64,000 nt of DNA from Paramarasmius palmivorus (taxonomy: Eukaryota; Basidiomycota; Agaricomycetes; Agaricales; Marasmiaceae): assembly GCA_037176845.1 (NCBI GenBank), contig JAYKXP010000089.1, positions 1-64,000 of the forward strand. The letters are read 5' to 3'. How positions within the stretch are numbered: the stretch's first letter is position 1; each line of letters starts with the position of its first letter. The position numbers and the translations under genes were made by a program. This document shows positions 1,259-54,104 of this stretch, piece by piece. The notes under the pieces were generated by a model. It worked only from the letters and a program-made list of their open reading frames with translations. It ran no database searches and had not been told where the DNA came from.

Positions 1259-2950
1259 CTATCTTGTCGAAAAGTTGTATGCCTGCCTTGAAATGAAATG
1301 AAAAATGTGACTTACATATATATTACAGGAAATGTTCCGTGGAACGAACGTCTCATTGGCAACATTGGCCACTGCAATCAGGGTCCTCAACTTCCTAATT
1401 CGACCTAGGAGACCTCTCCGCTGCAGTCAGGGCTACAGTTTCCAAATCCGACAAGGGAAAGTTCCGGTGAGCGTCTGTCTACTAATGGTGTCATCTTTCC
1501 CATTTATAACTATTTCACAGACCTCTGCTCGCTCCCCTTTTTTGGCATACTTCGCTCCTGGAAATCTCTTGTAAGCCACAACTGTCCTTTGTTTCTTGTT
1601 ATTTTCCTGATTATCCTCTAGTCGATATGGGTAGGACAAAGTCGGCTAAAGTCAAGACAACCCAGAAATCATGCAAAGTCAAGTCAGGCAAGGCGAGCAG
1701 CAAGGAGACCAGCAAGGAGACCAGCAAGGAGACACGTGGATGCAAGAGCTATTTCAAAGGCGCACGTCTCGCGTTCATGGAAACGTCTTTGGATACATTT
1801 CTGTCCCTCCCTAAACGTGGACGGGCGCGTAAAGCATTTTGGCCGAAGTTCATGGCCGAGCTTCTTGAGAAGTTTCCCTTGTCAGACTATCCTCTGCCAC
1901 CAGACACGTTAGAGCCGCTCCCTCCTCTCACTAAGGAAGAACGAAATGCCATGACTTCCAAACAGAAGAAGAACCGGCTCAAAGCAGAACAGCGAAGGAA
2001 GGACTGTACAGATGAAAACCGATTGTTGGTGGTAAGTCTTTGTTAATATATCTTCTACAATATGACTGAAATCATACAGATAGCTCAGAACTGGTTTCGC
2101 TATCAGGAGTCGGTTGTTGACAAGGACTCAAATAATTTGTTCGAGTCCTTTCTACGCGACCTAAATGAGGTACCTGACCGTCCTCGTTGGCCTCAACTTC
2201 GTCACCATGTTGCTACCCATCCGAAATACAAGAAGCAAGTCGAAGAGTGTTCAAAAGAGACATGTCGTACAGACCGTCTACCTAGTCGAATGCAAGCTGC
2301 GAAGGACATTATTGAGGATATGCCAGAGACAGAGGTTACCGAACTGGAGAAAGAAATCGACGATGCGCATGGACTTCTCCTCGAAGAATACCATGAAATC
2401 ATGGAGGCCCGTAAAGCAGGGGGATCTTGCACACTGGACGACCAAGCCACGTAAGTCATACAGTCTTTGCATTGCTGAATTATAAAACTAATGGACGTTA
2501 TAGCTGCCGTGCAAATCTGACTCGCGTCATTCATCCTTTCCTCCACCTTATACAGAAGTATACTGGGCTTAATGTGATGTTCACTGCTGGACGATTCAAA
2601 GGGTTAGATGGGAACCAAGAGAAGTACGATTTTCTTACGTGAGTTTAGTTATGTTTGCTGCTTTTTTACCTTTCTGACTATTGAACGAAGGCTCTTCTTG
2701 GTCCCAGAAGGTGCTCCTGAGTGGGATCAATATCGGGTCAACGAATATAAGGATTATGGCAGGAAATGGTGTGCATGGACCTGTGCCGTTCACCAGTTCG
2801 AAACCAACCAAGCAAATGACAAATTGGCCGGCACCAGTGCAACCGACGTTACTGATTTGGCGAATGTGGACTCAACCACTATCTTGAAGGATGGCTCGGA
2901 TGCAATGTCGTTAAAGAGTCTGCTAACTGTATCCCAAGTTGAAACAAGAG

Positions 2951-3023
2951 TGGCGCCATGGGGAGTCGAACCCCAGACCTCCTGATTGCATGTTAGGTGC
3001 TCTAACCACTGAGCTATAGTGCC
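2951..3023 (-). other. tRNA-like sequence inside the 3' LTR of the TRIM
   Basis: 73 nt that fold as a tRNA: 7-bp acceptor stem (GGCACTA / TGGCGCC, one mismatch), D arm GCTC/GAGC, anticodon stem CCTAA/TCAGG and T arm around GGTTCGACTCC. The A box (TAGCTCAGTGG) and B box (GGTTCGACTCC) fit the pol III internal-promoter consensus. The anticodon would read TGC (Ala) but position 33 is A, not T, so a working tRNA is unlikely. It lies in the sense direction of the LTR, near its 3' end. Confidence 0.65.
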
Positions 3024-3414
3024 TTGTCTACACAACAGAGCATGCTCACTATATACACATGCATATGCGACCCCACCAAAGGATACACCAACATATGGGA
3101 AGCCGATGACACTTAAGTCATACTATTTGGCGGTATATAGCTATCATGATTATTGTGCAACACTGAGACCTGGACGTGCTAATATTCCCTATTCCTATAA
3201 TCCTATCAATCCTATCTATACCAATGTAGCACTCCAATCCAGGCCCAGCATAACATCTCCCCCAAACTGAGAGATGTTGACCTCCTGGTCAACTGTTCAA
3301 CAGCAGCATATTATCACTTTTTACACGAGTTAGCAAGCCATAGAAATGACTTTTTCCCTCGCGGTGGGCTCCAGATAAAGAGTCTGCTAACTGTATCCCA
3401 AGTTGAAACAAGAG

Positions 3415-3484
3415 TGGCGCCATGGGGAGTCGAACCCCAGACCTCCTGATTGCATGTTAGGTGCTAACCACTGAGCTATATGCC
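3415..3484 (-). other. Second tRNA-like copy inside the 5' LTR of the TRIM
   Basis: The same tRNA-like segment as in the 3' LTR, shortened to about 70 nt by small deletions in the acceptor and D-arm region. The B box is unchanged and the A box nearly so. Its presence in both LTRs shows that the tRNA-like part is built into the element and is not a tRNA gene beside one insertion. Confidence 0.6.
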
Positions 3485-5735
3485 TTGTCTACACAACAGA
3501 GCATGCCTCACTATATACACATTGCATATGCGACCACCTAAGGATACACCAACATATGGGAAAGCCGATGACACTTAAGTCATACTATTTGGCGGTATAT
3601 AGCTATCATGATTATTGTGCAACACTGAGACCTGGACGTGCTAATATTCCCTATTCCTATAATCCTATCAATCCTATCTATACCAATGTAGCACTCCAAT
3701 CCAGGCCCAGCATAACATCGTCTTCCACTAAGACACTCCGAAAAGCATGTCCTGCCAAGGCCAGGTCTGACAAGGATTCTGAGGGCGAGACTTCGGACTC
3801 TGAGGAGACCTCGGATTCTGAGGATTCTGAGGAGGAAGGTGACGAGGAGAATCCGAATGAAGCAGGTGGCAGTGTAGCCAAGAGTCGACCAGGTGGAGCT
3901 ATTGTATGCTTACCTCGCCATTCGCCAACCTGTGACTACGAAGAGGAACGGGCTTCGAACATTACAAGAAACAGGGCTATATTGGAAGACCTTCTTGCAC
4001 AGATTCCTCCAGAAGAGTCGCCTTTCCAACTCTCAAAGCCGAAGCTCAAGAAAAAGAGCAAAGCCCAAGAGAAGTCGAATGGAAGGAGGATACCAGCTAC
4101 AAGGAAGTCAGCACGTCTCAATAAGGTATGTTTATATTGTATTTCTATTTAGTTTTATCCTGACTTGTATCATTCAGACTACCAGTAACAACAAGGAATC
4201 CCCAGCTCCTCAACTCGATGAAGCAGGGCCTTTTGTGACGGAAAATGCAGATGACGATAATAGCGGCATTCGCCCATCTACGTCAACAACTCCTGACAAC
4301 AGCTCAGATGGCTCGGTGGATGCACACAAGCCAGATCTTCCTTCCGCTGTCCCTTCCCAGAAATCTCCAGCACAGTCACAACCGTCTGAATCTCTGGAGC
4401 CTTCTCCAGAAGTTTCTCCAACACCAATGCCTTCTCAACCTCCCCCAGCATCTTCTCCCCCATCGGCACCCCCTTCTCCATCTTCACCTTCACCGTCTCC
4501 ATCTTCACCTTCTCTCGAATCCCCGTCAGCACCTCTGGAGATTCAAGACGAATTGCATGAGGACACGGTGGATGCAGAATTCCGTTCTGCCTGGTCTGAT
4601 GTTAATACAGGTGGAATTGGAGATGCAAACTATCCCATCGAGGCATGTTCTGTTGAATGGATCCAGCAATATGCCAGGTTCTTGCTAGAGCTTCCTGAAG
4701 GCTGCGAAGAGAGGCCAAAAGCCTTTGTCGACTGTGTCTATTTGTGGATTACAGTTGAGGAACGATGGAACGGGAACGTTGATCACAACCCACTGCCTTC
4801 AGAGCACCGCGTTGATGGACTGAGATATTGGTTCAAGGCACATCGAACCCGACTTGTGAAGACTCCAAACGAAGTCAAGTTGGAGAAGATACGAGACCAG
4901 TTTTGGACTTGGTTAGAAAATTGTGTACCGGAATGGATGCAGAAAGACGAAATGGGTCGAGTGCTTCCAGTTGGTGCTTCAGCAGAAGGCGATCTCAATT
5001 CCTTAGTCTGTCCAGGAACGTCAGGATTCGTACTCTTTTTGGTTGCTCTCCGTTGGTGGTGCGACGTCGTGGTCAGGAGATAGAGTTGGATTTTGGTTTG
5101 AGGCAGCGAAGTGTATTCACCTGCTTCTTGCTGGCCTTTTATCCACCCTGTAAGCGTCTATCTTCCTCTACCTTTTCTGAAGATCGCCTGATAATAAAAG
5201 TTTGTCAGGCTTCCTGAGGACTCGCCATCATCCTACCCCCTGATAATACATCTTCTGTATCAGACCTCTGTCCAAGCGAAAGCAGCATGTTGTACTCACA
5301 CCCTTCTGCTGCCCAGAATCCTCAAAACGATGACAAACAAAACCAAATGCAACCTCTACATCCAAGTGTTTCCCTGCAACATTTTAACCCTGTCAAGTCA
5401 TCAATAGGCAAAATCCCCGAGTATCGCAATCTTCTGGTCTATCGGGTTCTCGAAGGAGTAGGAAAACGATCTTGAGTTATTAGGTCTTCTACAAGTCTGT
5501 CTTGACAGGGATTGTTGGAGTGGGTACTTTGTGCTAATACTGGAAATTTGGATCTTGCGGCCCGGCAGTTCAAGATATTGGTTTATCCGGCACCAAGTTA
5601 GGTAAACATTTGAGTAACAATATATTTTCTGCTAATATAGCTTAAGCCTCATTTTTGAGTGTTTCGGCAGAGGTGCTGTTGGGAAGGGCCCCCCGGCATG
5701 TAATGCCCTTGAGTCAACCTAGAGTTAAACCCTGT

Positions 5736-44640: not shown

Positions 44641-46115
44641 ACTGTTAACGGTTATGAGCTAGAGGAAACAAAGAAAAACTAAGATGGAAACTTCAACGGT
44701 TGGCAAGCGTCAGCTTTGCGTTTGCGAAGCTCAGCGTTTTAACAGGGTACAGGTTGAGGGAACGCTCGCGAAGCGGAACGAGTGGTACGAGCAGAAATGG
44801 ACTTTTGGTGGAGGTACTAAGGCTGATAGCCTGAGCTTTCCTGATCGTCCTCGAGTTCATCGTTCTCAAGTCGCCACTGGCGTCCTCCTCGCGTCTCCTC
44901 GTTGTCGTCCTCGTCGTTGTCGTCGTCGTCGCTATCGTCCTGTGTGGAATGATTCTACGACCTTTGCTGTCCCTAATGACCTGCTTGTGCGCGGGTCCGG
45001 GCATAGCTGAAGTTTGCGTAGTAAGCACGGGGATTGGTGGTGTGACTGGAGTCGATTTACCGGCTGGCCTGGAAAAGTAGCGAATCGTCGTCTTGGTGAA
45101 CGTCTTTGCCGGCGTACTTGTTATTGAAGTAACCAGCCGAGGGAAGATGGAATCCGGAATGGCAGAACCTAATAGAAGATCGTCAATAAGGCCGTTAAAA
45201 GAAATAATAGAAAGAGATACGCACCTGGATGTCGTATTTTCTCTTCCACTGTTCGATCAGGTTTTGGCGTTAGGGAGGTAGCTTGTAAGGGCTGCGATGC
45301 CAGGGAGAGAGGATCCGACTGTAGACGCCAATGCGCCAGTGTCACGAGTAACTTCCATAGCCCTCCCTAGGGAAAGCTTTTGTAATTGTGAAATTGGTGG
45401 AGAGAACGCCTATAAACAGCCAAGGTTAGCAAAAAGAAAAGAAAGAAAGAAGCGCGTGGAGACTCACCACGGAGATTTCCGGCGTGCAAGAAATGCGTCT
45501 CCAGTGAAGACTTGTCTTTGGAGGCAGAAACTTGATAAATGTTGTTGATTAAATGGGTGGACCCGCTCTATCACTTGAAAGATGCGAGAGATTGAGAGAT
45601 CGTCCAGTCGTCGACTTTTTGAGTGCGTCCATAATTGAGAGTGGATGTGAAATAGACTATAAACACGAGTTAGCAGGTTGTAGGGGGAGCTGCACGAAAG
45701 AAACAGGGGATAGCATACCTGGATCGGATGTGTGGTGGGGGGAAAGAAAGAATGAAAATTCACTAAGTACCCGACCCAACGACTTATATGTCTCAACTCA
45801 TATCACATTTAGAGTTCGGCCTACTCTAGAAAGGCAATGGAGGACTTCTCCGCCCTTTGCGGTAGAAGCAACTGGTTGGGAACTAGACGCTCCTGATCGG
45901 TCACAAGCCGAAACGGCGATCTAAGCGGTTACGCAACCTTCGGAGATAACTTTGATGGATGAATCTGCGCGCCCCCAATGCCTGTCCCCTACGAGTGTGT
46001 AGTACCCATGGATCCCCTGGATTTACTCTTTACAACGGTGGTCGTCCACGTGTCGTAAAGCTCCTTAGTTCTTGAGATCCAAGGAATTCACTGATGAGGA
46101 CAATCCTTCATTTTG

Positions 46116-47750
46116 TTTGGGGGAGATGATACGCCTGACTTAATCACTTCTTTTTCGAACGCAAAAACGCTAGTTTTGCACTTTATTATTGTTGCATAAA
46201 ACACATAATGGTTATAGAAGGACTAGTATGAAGCCTGAATAGCTAGTACATTGACGGAAGGTGTTTAGGTGGTTATATTAGTGGATCCGGTACATGGTAC
46301 GCCCCACATGGGTATCTGGCCACCACTTTTACTTCTACCAGTGTTGTCGAAGTACAATCACCTCCTGAAAACTGTAGGGAGAAGGTCTTAAGTGAATTTC
46401 ACTACGGACTACACCTAGATCACCTACCGGACGCACAAGTGATTCTTACAAGTTAATTTTACCCCTTCATACACCCAGAACTGCTCTGCTCGAGTTATAC
46501 TGGCTCGGGCATCACTCGGGACTGATGGCAGAGGGGGAAACTGATCGGAAAATCACCGATGCCGGATACGGCAAGGGTCTAGAGACCTGTCGGCCGAAGT
46601 GGAACCTATTGATCGGAGCGGAGGCAAAAGCTGTTCAAACCGTTGTTACGGTGGCGTAAGCGGATTCCCTCTGATATACCTATATGTGGAACACGTCCAC
46701 ATGGAGTGGATAAGAAAATTTAGAGGCGGCGTTATGTGGAGGAACGGTGTTGAGCGATGAGGAGCTCGGGAGGACCCTGCCAGGCCTCCGATTGGTGGAA
46801 AAGCGTTTGGCGCATGGAAAAGAAAATTTTATAAAGGCTAAAACACCTAACCGTCGGCCAGGCTTCAACTCCTGTACCTTAAAACAGAGTGTTACTACTC
46901 GCTCGTCACGCTATTTGCGCCATATATGACGTTGTGACTAATAGATTTCCCTGATATGTATATTTTCTCGTTGTATCTCTCTCCCGACTCTGTTTCATCT
47001 CTTTTCCGTCTCGTTCCGCAGTTATCCGACTCAGAATTACCTATTATTCAGTTTAATTCACCTTGGACAGTATAAAAAGGACACCAAATGTACGGGGGAC
47101 CGCAGAGGATTCTGCCCCCACACATTGCACGTTACGCGTTGTAATGTGGTTATCGTACGAATAGATTACTATTGTCCGATCAGAACTCTTACCCAATCAG
47201 GCCAAGCCTTATTGAGAAGACTAGTTGAGATCTTACTGCAGACAAGAACTTGAGAGGTCGCGATAAAGACCAAGTTGTTGGCTTTGTGTATTGCTCTACA
47301 CTTCTCCTATTAGTGAAACTTTATTAGAGTTCAGGTCTTGGTGGCCGTTTCCTGGAAGTGTTTTAACCAGTTGGGTTACACTTTAGCATCGTAAGAAGGC
47401 TCGGTTTTGGTGGCTGAGCTTCTTGCTTGCGTGCTTTATAGAAGACAGTTTTGGTGGCTGTTTTTCGGCAGTTGTGCTGTAGTTTTACCTTAGAGAGAGT
47501 CAGATCACTGCGAGGCAGTTTAGATCGAACCAAGATCAGTTCACATAGCCCCTTGGCGCCTTATTTCCTAGCTTATAGAAGCAAGGACAACCCTATTTAC
47601 GCATCTATATAACAGGTGTACTTTTTCCTAGAACTTCGACGTTATAGAAGTGATTTACCCCTCTTGAGACAAGCTTGAGTGAATATCTCTAAGCGCGGCC
47701 AACTCTGATCTCACGCCGAACCCACACATGCTCAACTACGCCACAGTAGA
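46116..47750 (+). mobile_element. Large LTR of a Ty3/gypsy-type retrotransposon (end uncertain)
   Basis: A polypurine tract TTTGGGGGAGA at 46116-46126 is followed by TGATACGCC, a typical LTR start. The preceding bases resemble a 3' end of a decayed internal region. No ORF of note lies between 46127 and 47750. A TATA box (TATAAAAAGG, 47071-47080) fits the U3/R promoter. Three short TTTTGGTGGCTG/CTTGGTGGCCG motifs repeat at about 47337, 47405 and 47450. I could not find a second LTR copy in the window, so the right edge and the status (solo or 3' LTR) are inferred. Confidence 0.4.
47071..47080 (+). promoter_or_regulatory. TATA box in the large LTR
   Basis: TATAAAAAGG, preceded by CACCTTGGACAG, about 950 bp into the putative LTR. 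This is a plausible U3 promoter directing transcription to the right. Confidence 0.35.
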
Positions 47751-47901
47751 GTGCTTTGTACACTGAGAGCAGTCATAGTATTAGTTATTTCATCATTCAA
47801 CCGAAAACAAAGTGGTATTAACGAGCTGCCAATAGCCAGGTTCCATCCGTCCTTCTGGCTTCTCCTTCTGCGCTATTCGTTATGTCGAAAGACCATTATG
47901 T

Positions 47902-51108: not shown

Positions 51109-51838
51109 ATGTCCGGCGAAGGTATGCCGTCGCATTGACAAGACTTTCAGGTCGGCTGTACTCACGGCTCTACAGATACAGTCTACTTCGACCAATTTTC
51201 CAAGCTGCCTCCAAACCTCGTCATCACTGCCATAGAGGTCACCAAGTTTGCAGCGCACTTCGTCAACCTCGAGGAACCAAAGTCGTTCCAGTGGCAGAGG
51301 TTCTTAGATGAGGGCATAAACAAGTACCCAGGCAAGTTGATTGCACCACATTTTTCGAACAAATGTCCATAATAAACTTCAAATAGGCAGCGATTTGTCG
51401 ATGGACAAGTTCCAGAGTAACACCATCAATCAACAGACTGCGACGGTGCAGACTATGGTTGACAAAATCGTCGATTTTCTGAAAGTGGTCCTCAGTGTCG
51501 CGTTAGGTGAACAGGACATTGCGGCGCTGGCGAAGAACATCGAAACGACCTTTACCGACTTGAAGACAGCCAAGGACAATGGTTGGGCCGACTTTTCGAA
51601 GTCTAGCTCCTCGCACAACTCCTCCTGGCAATATCGAGTACAGTTTGCGTTCCCGAACCCAGACCTCCCGAACTTCTTTTACAGCCTGGTGACTACCATC
51701 AAGCTCGAGGCAGATATCCAGGAGGAGTCGTCTTGGTGGGGTTTGCAAAGCAGCACGAGGAAGAACTTCTCGGCGGCTATCGACGCCATGGAGCTCATTG
51801 TTCTTCAGGGTTTCAAGGACCCACTCAAACCTGTTTAA
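51109..51838 (+). CDS. Cyt-like (volvatoxin/CytB-type) pore-forming protein, 206 aa
   Basis: Exons 51109-51121, 51176-51331 and 51387-51838, in phase. The tiny first exon encodes only the start. The second intron has a GC donor. Length (about 200 aa) and the pattern of an N-terminal helical layer followed by a strand-rich C-terminal half (TTFTDLKTAKDNGW, WQYRVQFAFPNPDLPN, FYSLVTTIKLEAD) fit the delta-endotoxin CytB fold. In mushrooms this fold is known from Volvariella volvatoxin A2. No signal peptide is visible. Such proteins insert into membranes; a defensive role against animals or microbes is usually proposed. A related copy lies 2.2 kb downstream. Assignment is by pattern recognition, not alignment. 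Confidence 0.75.
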
Positions 51839-53348: not shown

Positions 53349-54104
53349 ATGTCCGGCGAAGGTAGGTTATACATTCACATGTTGCAAAAGCAAAAGCACG
53401 CCAATTTCCTGTACTCGTTACTCCACAGAACCAGTCTATTTTGACCAATTCTCCAAGCTTCCGCCTAACCTCGTTAGGACCGCCTCGGAGGTCAACAGTT
53501 TCGCGGCGCACTTTGTCAAACTCGCCGACCCGAAATCGTTCGAGTGGCAGAAATTTCTGGACGAAGGCATCAACCAGTATCAAGGCAAGCTGATTGTATT
53601 ATCCACTCCTGGATATGTGCTAATCATGAACCCCATACAGGCGATGACCTGACACTGGAAAAGTTCCAGAGCAATACCATTAACTAACAAACTGCGACGT
53701 TGGAAATGATGGTTAACAAGATCGTCGATTTTCTGAGCGCCGTCCTGAGTATCCCCTTAAGTGCAGTGGACATTGCAGCACTCGCGAAAGTTATTATGAC
53801 AACCTTTACCGACTTGAAGACAGCCAAGGACAATGGTTGGGCCGACTATTCGTCCCTAGCCCCTACAATGAACCGCTCCTCCTGGCAGTATCGAGTGCAG
53901 TTTGCGTTCCCAAATCCTGACCTTCCGGAGTGCTTCTACAGCTTGGTGACTACCATCATGCTTGAAGCAGACATCGAGGGGGAATTCTCTTGGTGGGGCC
54001 TGACAGGTAGCACAAGGAGGAATTTCTCAGCAGAAATCGATGTTATGCAGCTCATCGTTATGGAAGGCTTCCGGGACCCACACAAGGGTACCGGATCTGC
54101 TTGA
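53349..54104 (+). pseudogene. Cyt-like pore-forming protein gene, broken by a stop
   Basis: It has the same three-exon plan as the first copy (53349-53361, 53429-53584, 53641-54104). The first two exons have identical lengths and there is again a GC-AG second intron. An in-frame TAA lies at 53685-53687, early in exon 3, so the protein would be cut to about a third. Downstream the frame stays open and similar to the first copy to 54104, implying a recent loss or a base error. 54105-54568 after it holds no gene. Confidence 0.7.

Follow-up and report, generated by a model that had tools for sequence, protein, structure and literature searches.

Background

The closest described relatives of the element reported here are the Helenus (TRIMp3) elements of Kojima (2024), terminal-repeat retrotransposons in miniature (TRIMs) that bear a tRNA-derived segment and are 311-1263 bp in length; rust fungi account for 113 families, and Agaricomycetes for some others (PMC10886601). 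In the available text of that paper, fungal Helenus elements are described as having 5-bp target site duplications (TSDs), a primer-binding site (PBS) that mostly lies on the anticodon loop of a tRNA and similarity to Copia; animal Helenus elements are described as having 4-bp TSDs, similarity to Gypsy and, in some cases, priming on tRNA-Lys. Transcription of Helenus by RNA polymerase III (Pol III) was expected by the author and is left unproven there. According to the same text, the plant TRIM Cassandra likewise carries a Pol III-type small-RNA promoter in its long terminal repeats (LTRs). TRIMs have also been reported in three of five Boletales genomes in the text available of PMC5689174. 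The window analysed here (the whole stretch of 64,000 bp, positions 1 to 64,000 of contig JAYKXP010000089.1 of Paramarasmius palmivorus, assembly GCA_037176845.1) contains an 806-bp LTR element on the minus strand at 2912-3717, in which two direct repeats enclose 120 bp. We consider it probable that this is a Helenus-type TRIM whose LTRs carry a tRNA-derived segment predicted to start RNA by Pol III, and that proteins of Ty3/Gypsy elements from this genome likely copy and integrate it.

The element resembles Helenus, as described in the portions of PMC10886601 available, in being a short, non-coding TRIM in which each LTR holds a tRNA-derived segment with A and B boxes, and in having a PBS, a polypurine tract (PPT), TSDs and solo LTRs. 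It is unlike the fungal members in having a 4-bp TSD centred on CG, a PBS that matches the 3' end of tRNA-Lys and a Gypsy-type LTR tip, PBS and PPT, where the Copia side of the comparison is taken from description. Its LTRs are 342-347 bp in length, compared with 323 for the longest Helenus LTR in the available text of PMC10886601. On the available text, then, the window TRIM is a Helenus element by definition but departs from the description of the fungal group. It differs from Cassandra, which has 5S rRNA in its LTR and belongs to plants: an Rfam scan of the window returned two matches, both tRNA.

An initial annotation, made from the sequence alone, had treated a tRNA-bearing fungal TRIM as undescribed. 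This part of it falls, as Helenus already covers fungi (PMC10886601). In the open-licence PMC literature searched, that paper was the only one with tRNA-bearing TRIMs in the text available, and neither a Gypsy-driven fungal tRNA-bearing TRIM nor CG-centred Gypsy TSDs in fungi were described; the available text of PMC3411680, PMC5689174, PMC12810828 and PMC3248453 does not mention tRNA-bearing TRIMs. What is likely new, judging from sequence comparison, is Gypsy drive combined with a CG-centred 4-bp target in a fungal Helenus-type TRIM.

Element structure

The features of the window copy are as follows.

2912..3255, minus strand: 3' LTR, 344 bp, with the minus-strand reading TGTTATGC...ACTCTTTA
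3376..3717, minus strand: 5' LTR, 342 bp, with several small indels and the minus-strand reading TGTTATGC...ACTCTTTA
3256..3375, minus strand: internal region, 120 bp
3256..3267, minus strand: PPT GTTTGGGGGAGA, 12 nt, immediately 5' of the 3' LTR
3356..3373, minus strand: PBS TGGAGCCCACCGCGAGGG, 18 nt, with a 2-nt spacer (TC) between the 5' LTR and the PBS
2908..2911, no strand: left TSD, TCGT, with a central CG; the empty site has a single TCGT
3718..3721, no strand: right TSD, TCGT
2951..3023, minus strand: tRNA-like segment of the 3' LTR, called by Rfam (tRNA) and ARAGORN (tRNA-Ala TGC)
3415..3484, minus strand: tRNA-like segment of the 5' LTR, called by Rfam (tRNA), 3 bases shorter than the other copies
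2962..2972, minus strand: B box GGTTCGACTCC in the 3' LTR, read from the sequence
3006..3016, minus strand: A box TAGCTCAGTGG in the 3' LTR, read from the sequence
3050..3055, minus strand: TATATA box of the 3' LTR, 32 nt upstream of the tRNA-like segment (33 nt in other copies)
3512..3517, minus strand: TATATA box of the 5' LTR

The coding-free TRIM proposed initially, with two LTRs, PBS, PPT, 4-bp TSD and a 120-bp interior, is therefore borne out: the repeats, TCGT, PBS and PPT were all located. No open reading frame (ORF) of at least 150 aa lies wholly inside the window copy. An antisense ORF of 198 aa (3556-4152, plus strand) starts in the 5' LTR and runs on into the flank. Short interspersed elements (SINEs) have no LTRs and are not known to be bounded by short integrase-type TSDs; the presence of LTRs, a PBS, a PPT and a 4-bp TSD rules out a SINE.

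Genomic copies and mobility

A search of the genome (68.3 Mb in 393 contigs) with the TRIM LTR, in which copy counts are lower bounds, returned at least 10 matches, of which nine are full-length at 97-100% identity and one is a 59-bp fragment at 90%. The nine full LTRs belong to two whole elements, the 806-bp window copy (on contig C89) and an 816-bp copy at C10:273721-274536, and to five solo LTRs (C158, C225, C275, C143 and C194); the internal region matches the genome at the two whole elements only. The LTRs of the C10 element are identical over 347 bp. Those of the window copy are 97% identical to each other, with several small indels and substitutions. At least one change, near LTR position 176, is common to these two and absent from the other copies (the local alignment is ambiguous), which is what copying of both from a single RNA should produce.

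An empty site for the window insertion was found at C89:77284-77605, where the joined flanks occur free of the element with 91% identity across the junction, one TCGT and no insert; this paralogue has 24 extra bases farther downstream of the junction. Based on the nine full-length LTR copies and the empty site, the window element is confirmed, above chance, as a genuine mobile LTR retrotransposon of the TRIM type. The two direct repeats could be read instead as a 464-bp segment that was simply duplicated in tandem beside a tRNA pseudogene. That reading is refuted, because there is a second whole element along with five TSD-flanked solo LTRs and one fragment elsewhere, and the empty site holds precisely one TCGT. 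The check proposed initially, whether full elements recur complete with their LTR pair, TSDs and tRNA part, also had a positive outcome, with the C10 element and the nine full LTRs.

The fragment (C193:50101-50159) matches the start of the TRIM LTR, diverges afterwards and is preceded by ACAT, which is not NCGN.

The tRNA-like segment

Read in the sense of the element, the tRNA-like part falls within the last third of the LTR; its orientation is that of the LTR, as first proposed. Rfam called a minus-strand tRNA in both window LTRs, with 55.3 bits (E-value: 3.5e-9) in the 3' LTR and 30.2 bits (E-value: 0.028) in the 5' LTR against a cut-off of 29, and ARAGORN called one in just one of the two (2950-3023, minus strand, tRNA-Ala(TGC)). 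The segment is present in 9/9 full LTRs, so absence from most LTR copies, which would have spoken against the element, was not observed. It was found nowhere else in the genome by DNA search, and the same search gave no parent tRNA gene. Its closest tRNA is a tRNA-Ile at 80% identity among 51 distinct predictions, a partial set in which mitochondrial predictions are included.

It might be supposed that the LTRs harbour a functional tRNA gene that is spread as a hitch-hiker, as the ARAGORN and Rfam calls would allow. However, the segment is not likely to be a working tRNA for three reasons. First, its anticodon loop lacks U33. Second, an A.C mismatch is seen by eye in both the acceptor stem and the anticodon stem. 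Third, the anticodon varies among LTR copies, being TGC in some and TGT in others. The 80% identity to the nearest tRNA and the missing terminator speak against such a gene as well, and when the two window segments are folded at minimum energy they do not outperform shuffles (z -0.39 and -1.09). Hitch-hiking of a functional tRNA gene is thus extremely improbable. The segment had been called cloverleaf-capable, a description that is correct only in part, given the shuffle-like folds, the absence of U33 and the mismatches in two stems. Cloverleaf folding in five of the nine LTR copies gave z from -1.09 to +1.12, which is unusable as support.

Transcription

The A and B boxes are consensus motifs of internal Pol III promoters. 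The A-box core TAGCTCAGTGG is intact in 9/9 LTRs and the B box GGTTCGACTCC in 8/9, the C275 copy having GGTTCAACTCC. All nine LTRs also have a TATATA, which precedes the first base of the tRNA-like segment by 32-33 nt; a TATA box 33 nt upstream is at the usual position for TFIIIB.

Several observations weigh against a Pol III start. For comparison, 37 distinct nuclear tRNA predictions were taken from fetched loci, with those near locus ends excluded; many are tRNA-Lys and some are perhaps spurious. Just 2/37 have TATAW in the 60 nt upstream, compared with TATA in 9/9 LTRs, and 35/37 have a run of four T within 45 nt downstream, which is found in no LTR copy. TATA in the LTRs and its rarity at nuclear tRNAs set the LTR promoter apart from that of a plain tRNA gene, and a TATA box fits RNA polymerase II (Pol II) too. 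Seven U6 genes (7 of the 9 U6 matches in the genome, examined by eye) have no TATAW in the 60 nt upstream, so the comparison does not support a U6-like promoter for the LTR. By the variable positions listed for the nine LTRs, conservation of the tRNA-like part does not exceed that of the remaining LTR sequence; with copies so similar to one another, selection on this part would not be visible. As to the run of four T, the sense strand of both whole elements contains none, which is not significant alone: such a run is also missing from 38% of dinucleotide shuffles when one LTR and the internal region are shuffled together, from 16% when the whole element is shuffled and from 5-7% of 805-bp stretches of the window. 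Given these frequencies, the missing run was dropped as evidence for Pol III and is treated as compatible with it. In the flanks of the seven insertions, the first such run occurs 23 to 425 nt from the element.

Most of the seven U6 genes (L115-L121) share an upstream block resembling GTGTAACACAA, as judged by eye.

A Pol III start with read-through into the flank is compatible with these promoter data, as is a Pol II start from the TATA box. Pol III read-through would be workable because the 3' LTR would still be in the RNA. The same Gypsy-driven TRIM might be transcribed by Pol II from a TATA box in U3, with the tRNA-like segment a captured passenger at the start of R or serving an RNA role (packaging or priming) instead of a promoter role. 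The TATATA of every LTR, the rarity of TATAW upstream of nuclear tRNAs and its absence upstream of the seven U6 genes, the lack of a terminator and the ordinary conservation of the segment all favour this alternative; the near-complete retention of both boxes, and a TATA position that would suit TFIIIB equally, speak against it. Overall, we regard transcription by Pol II as the rather unlikely one of the two, though a serious candidate. Use of the LTR promoter by Pol III is predicted to be the likelier, since both internal boxes persist although the segment has ceased to be a tRNA.

Primer-binding site

There are 73 genomic occurrences of the motif CTCGCGGTGGGCT, compared with one of its reversed control. 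Thirty of these places were examined and sorted by eye: 20 resemble tRNA genes and 10 are PBSs of LTR elements, including the C10 copy of the TRIM. When nine of the tRNA-like places were run through ARAGORN, seven were called as tRNA-Lys (CTT or TTT, with introns) and two were not called. All 18 nt of the TRIM PBS can pair with the 3' end of a nuclear, intron-bearing tRNA-Lys. Of these, 15 nt are read in the genes, and the last 3 nt correspond to the CCA that is added after transcription. The PBS therefore fits the 3' end of nuclear tRNA-Lys as a putative primer.

A listing of sites with the same PBS contained 20, six of them already known. Sequences of 601 bp were taken from 12 of the remaining 14, excluding C200 and C363, both of which match the LTR of family A (described below). 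No tRNA-like segment came up to the Rfam cut-off in the 12 fetched sites. Eight of these have LTR ends resembling those of loci L052, L056 or L057, and four have one end type of their own.

A candidate Ty3/Gypsy driver

The TRIM PBS (17 or 18 nt) is present at nine other LTR loci among the 30 places, in agreement with the proposal that larger LTR elements share it. At four of these (L052, L064, L056 and L057) the identity with the TRIM extends over 23 nt, comprising the LTR tip TTA, the spacer TC and the 18-nt PBS. One of them, L052 (C19:77860 onward), represents what we call family A, with LTRs of about 1.66 kb that start with TGATACG and end with GTATTA, and the PPT GTTTGGGGGGAGA. Its pol frame, seen at one locus (C19), is 1357 aa in length and matches a Pfam RNase H-like domain followed by an integrase zinc-binding domain. 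RVT_1 and rve are not among the Pfam matches of this frame; PF00078 or PF00665 is found on some of its relatives. Because RNase H precedes integrase in the C19 frame, family A is assigned to Ty3/Gypsy by predicted domain order. Relatives of the C19 frame include a protein of Lentinula edodes (58% identity) and one from a record labelled as an archaeal metagenome-assembled genome (60% over 73%), the latter probably a contaminant. Family A LTRs are abundant: of 150 candidates, 40 were scored, and these are at 97-100%.

Family A and the TRIM have in common the LTR tip TTA with TC and the 18-nt PBS, the PPT, a TG start and 4-bp NCGN duplications, but differ in that family A has far longer LTRs, a long Pol frame and an LTR body without detectable similarity to that of the TRIM. 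The PPT likeness was judged by eye: family A has one G more at C19 and the identical 12 nt in the window copy. Among the families seen, the LTR tip TTA is limited to the TRIM, family A and its nearest relatives. No Rfam tRNA match was obtained in the family A LTR.

A truncated family A copy spans 44870-47824 of the window, including a 3' internal end. Its right part is as follows.

46115..47824, plus strand: part of the truncated family A copy, with the PPT GTTTGGGGGAGA at 46115-46126 and the LTR at 46127-47820 (about 1.69 kb), followed by ACGA

At C19:76600-95174, LTRs and 3' internal ends of family A are repeated at a spacing of 15.65 kb, the pattern of an LTR-internal-LTR-internal-LTR array.

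Two points count against this assignment of a driver. The nine fetched loci that share the PBS (3 kb each) are similar to the TRIM only in the LTR tip, the PBS and chance-level words. In addition, the driver cannot be narrowed to one family, because a CG-centred target is found in at least two.

The described fungal Helenus elements point to Copia (PMC10886601, available text), and the TRIM might be one of these, moved by Copia. We judge this to be very unlikely: the TSD is 4 bp instead of 5, the LTR tip, PBS and PPT are common to the TRIM and a Gypsy family (Copia being compared by literature description, with no genome search for it), and the CG-centred target, detailed below, is that of family A.

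Target sites

In sense orientation, the TRIM duplications are ACGA, ACGT, CCGG, GCGG, CCAC/CCGC, CCGT and GCGG. All seven insertions have a 4-bp TSD, six of them exact and that of C275 with one transition, and all seven have a central CG, at C275 in one of the two copies (the other having CA). NCGN accounts for 5.05% (0.0505) of four-base words in the window, giving a binomial chance of about 8e-10 for 7/7; CpG is 3.5% in other genome loci over 5 kb.

For family A, both flanks were fetched for ten LTRs from about 17 with both ends listed, those of C136 and C274 being read by eye. An exact 4-bp TSD was found in 9/10, each of them NCGN; at the remaining LTR (C274) the two flanks differ, one being CCGG and the other ACAT. 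In the L065 group, a second family that shares the PBS (with the LTR end CACA and superfamily unassigned in this analysis), NCGN follows 18/20 LTR 3' ends, the others being CCAC and TCAG; this control covers 20 of 22 ends without the PBS and the 3' side only. Several of the copies behind these ends (L122-L141) lie within 4 kb of a contig end. In the available text of PMC12810828, the Gypsy element TCN3 of Cryptococcus is described with 5-bp TSDs of variable sequence.

The insertion locus

The 91% paralogue of the insertion locus (2781-3890) lies on this contig too, at a distance of about 73 kb. The window element probably sits in an exon, because one frame is open throughout the joined flanks. 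The ORF downstream of the element (3893-5083) has one relative at E ≤ 1e-20, from Paramarasmius palmivorus, which is 54% identical over half its length; a Pfam search with this ORF gave no match. Elsewhere in the window, 51369-51828 and 53623-54085 form a diverged direct repeat of about 460 bp (77-78%), with 2.25 kb between the two positions.

Proposed replication cycle

Based on these results, we propose the following cycle for a Pol III-transcribed, Gypsy-driven TRIM. The A and B boxes of the 5' LTR, with TATA 33 nt upstream, would start RNA close to where the tRNA-like segment begins. As the sense strand holds no run of four T, this RNA could continue across the internal region and the 3' LTR, and would terminate at a T run in the flank. 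By its complementarity to the PBS, tRNA-Lys would prime minus-strand DNA, which would jump to the same R-U5 of the 3' LTR, and the PPT would prime the plus strand. Gag, reverse transcriptase and integrase of a Gypsy element may act on the TRIM in trans, because the LTR tip and PBS (23 nt), the PPT, the 4-bp duplication and the CG-centred target are common to both. The product would then be inserted with a 4-bp TSD, as is seen where the paralogue is uninterrupted and the joined flanks are open in one frame. Lastly, recombination between LTRs would account for the five single LTRs with 4-bp TSDs, one of which differs by a transition.

More tentatively, and with somewhat less than even confidence, we suggest that a fungal TRIMp3 lineage joined the Gypsy machinery, combining a terminator-less TATA plus tRNA (Pol III) promoter and an RNA that ends in the flank with an integrase that reads CpG (NCGN, 4-bp stagger). 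The initial interpretation, a tRNA-bearing TRIM whose RNA might be made by Pol III while LTR machinery copies it, is partly supported.

Implications

The CG-centred 4-bp duplication of the TRIM and a Gypsy family, with NCGN at most LTR ends of a second family, amounts to a sharp integration preference. The presence in one genome of the TRIM and of a likely driver family whose LTRs are near-identical makes the combination of Pol III transcription with copying by LTR machinery testable. If the proposed Gypsy drive is correct, fungal TRIMs with tRNA promoters would not be tied to Copia. On the more tentative reading above, Helenus elements of fungi would be driven by no fewer than two kinds of element, Copia and Gypsy, and their promoter module would not depend on which retrotransposition machinery moves them.

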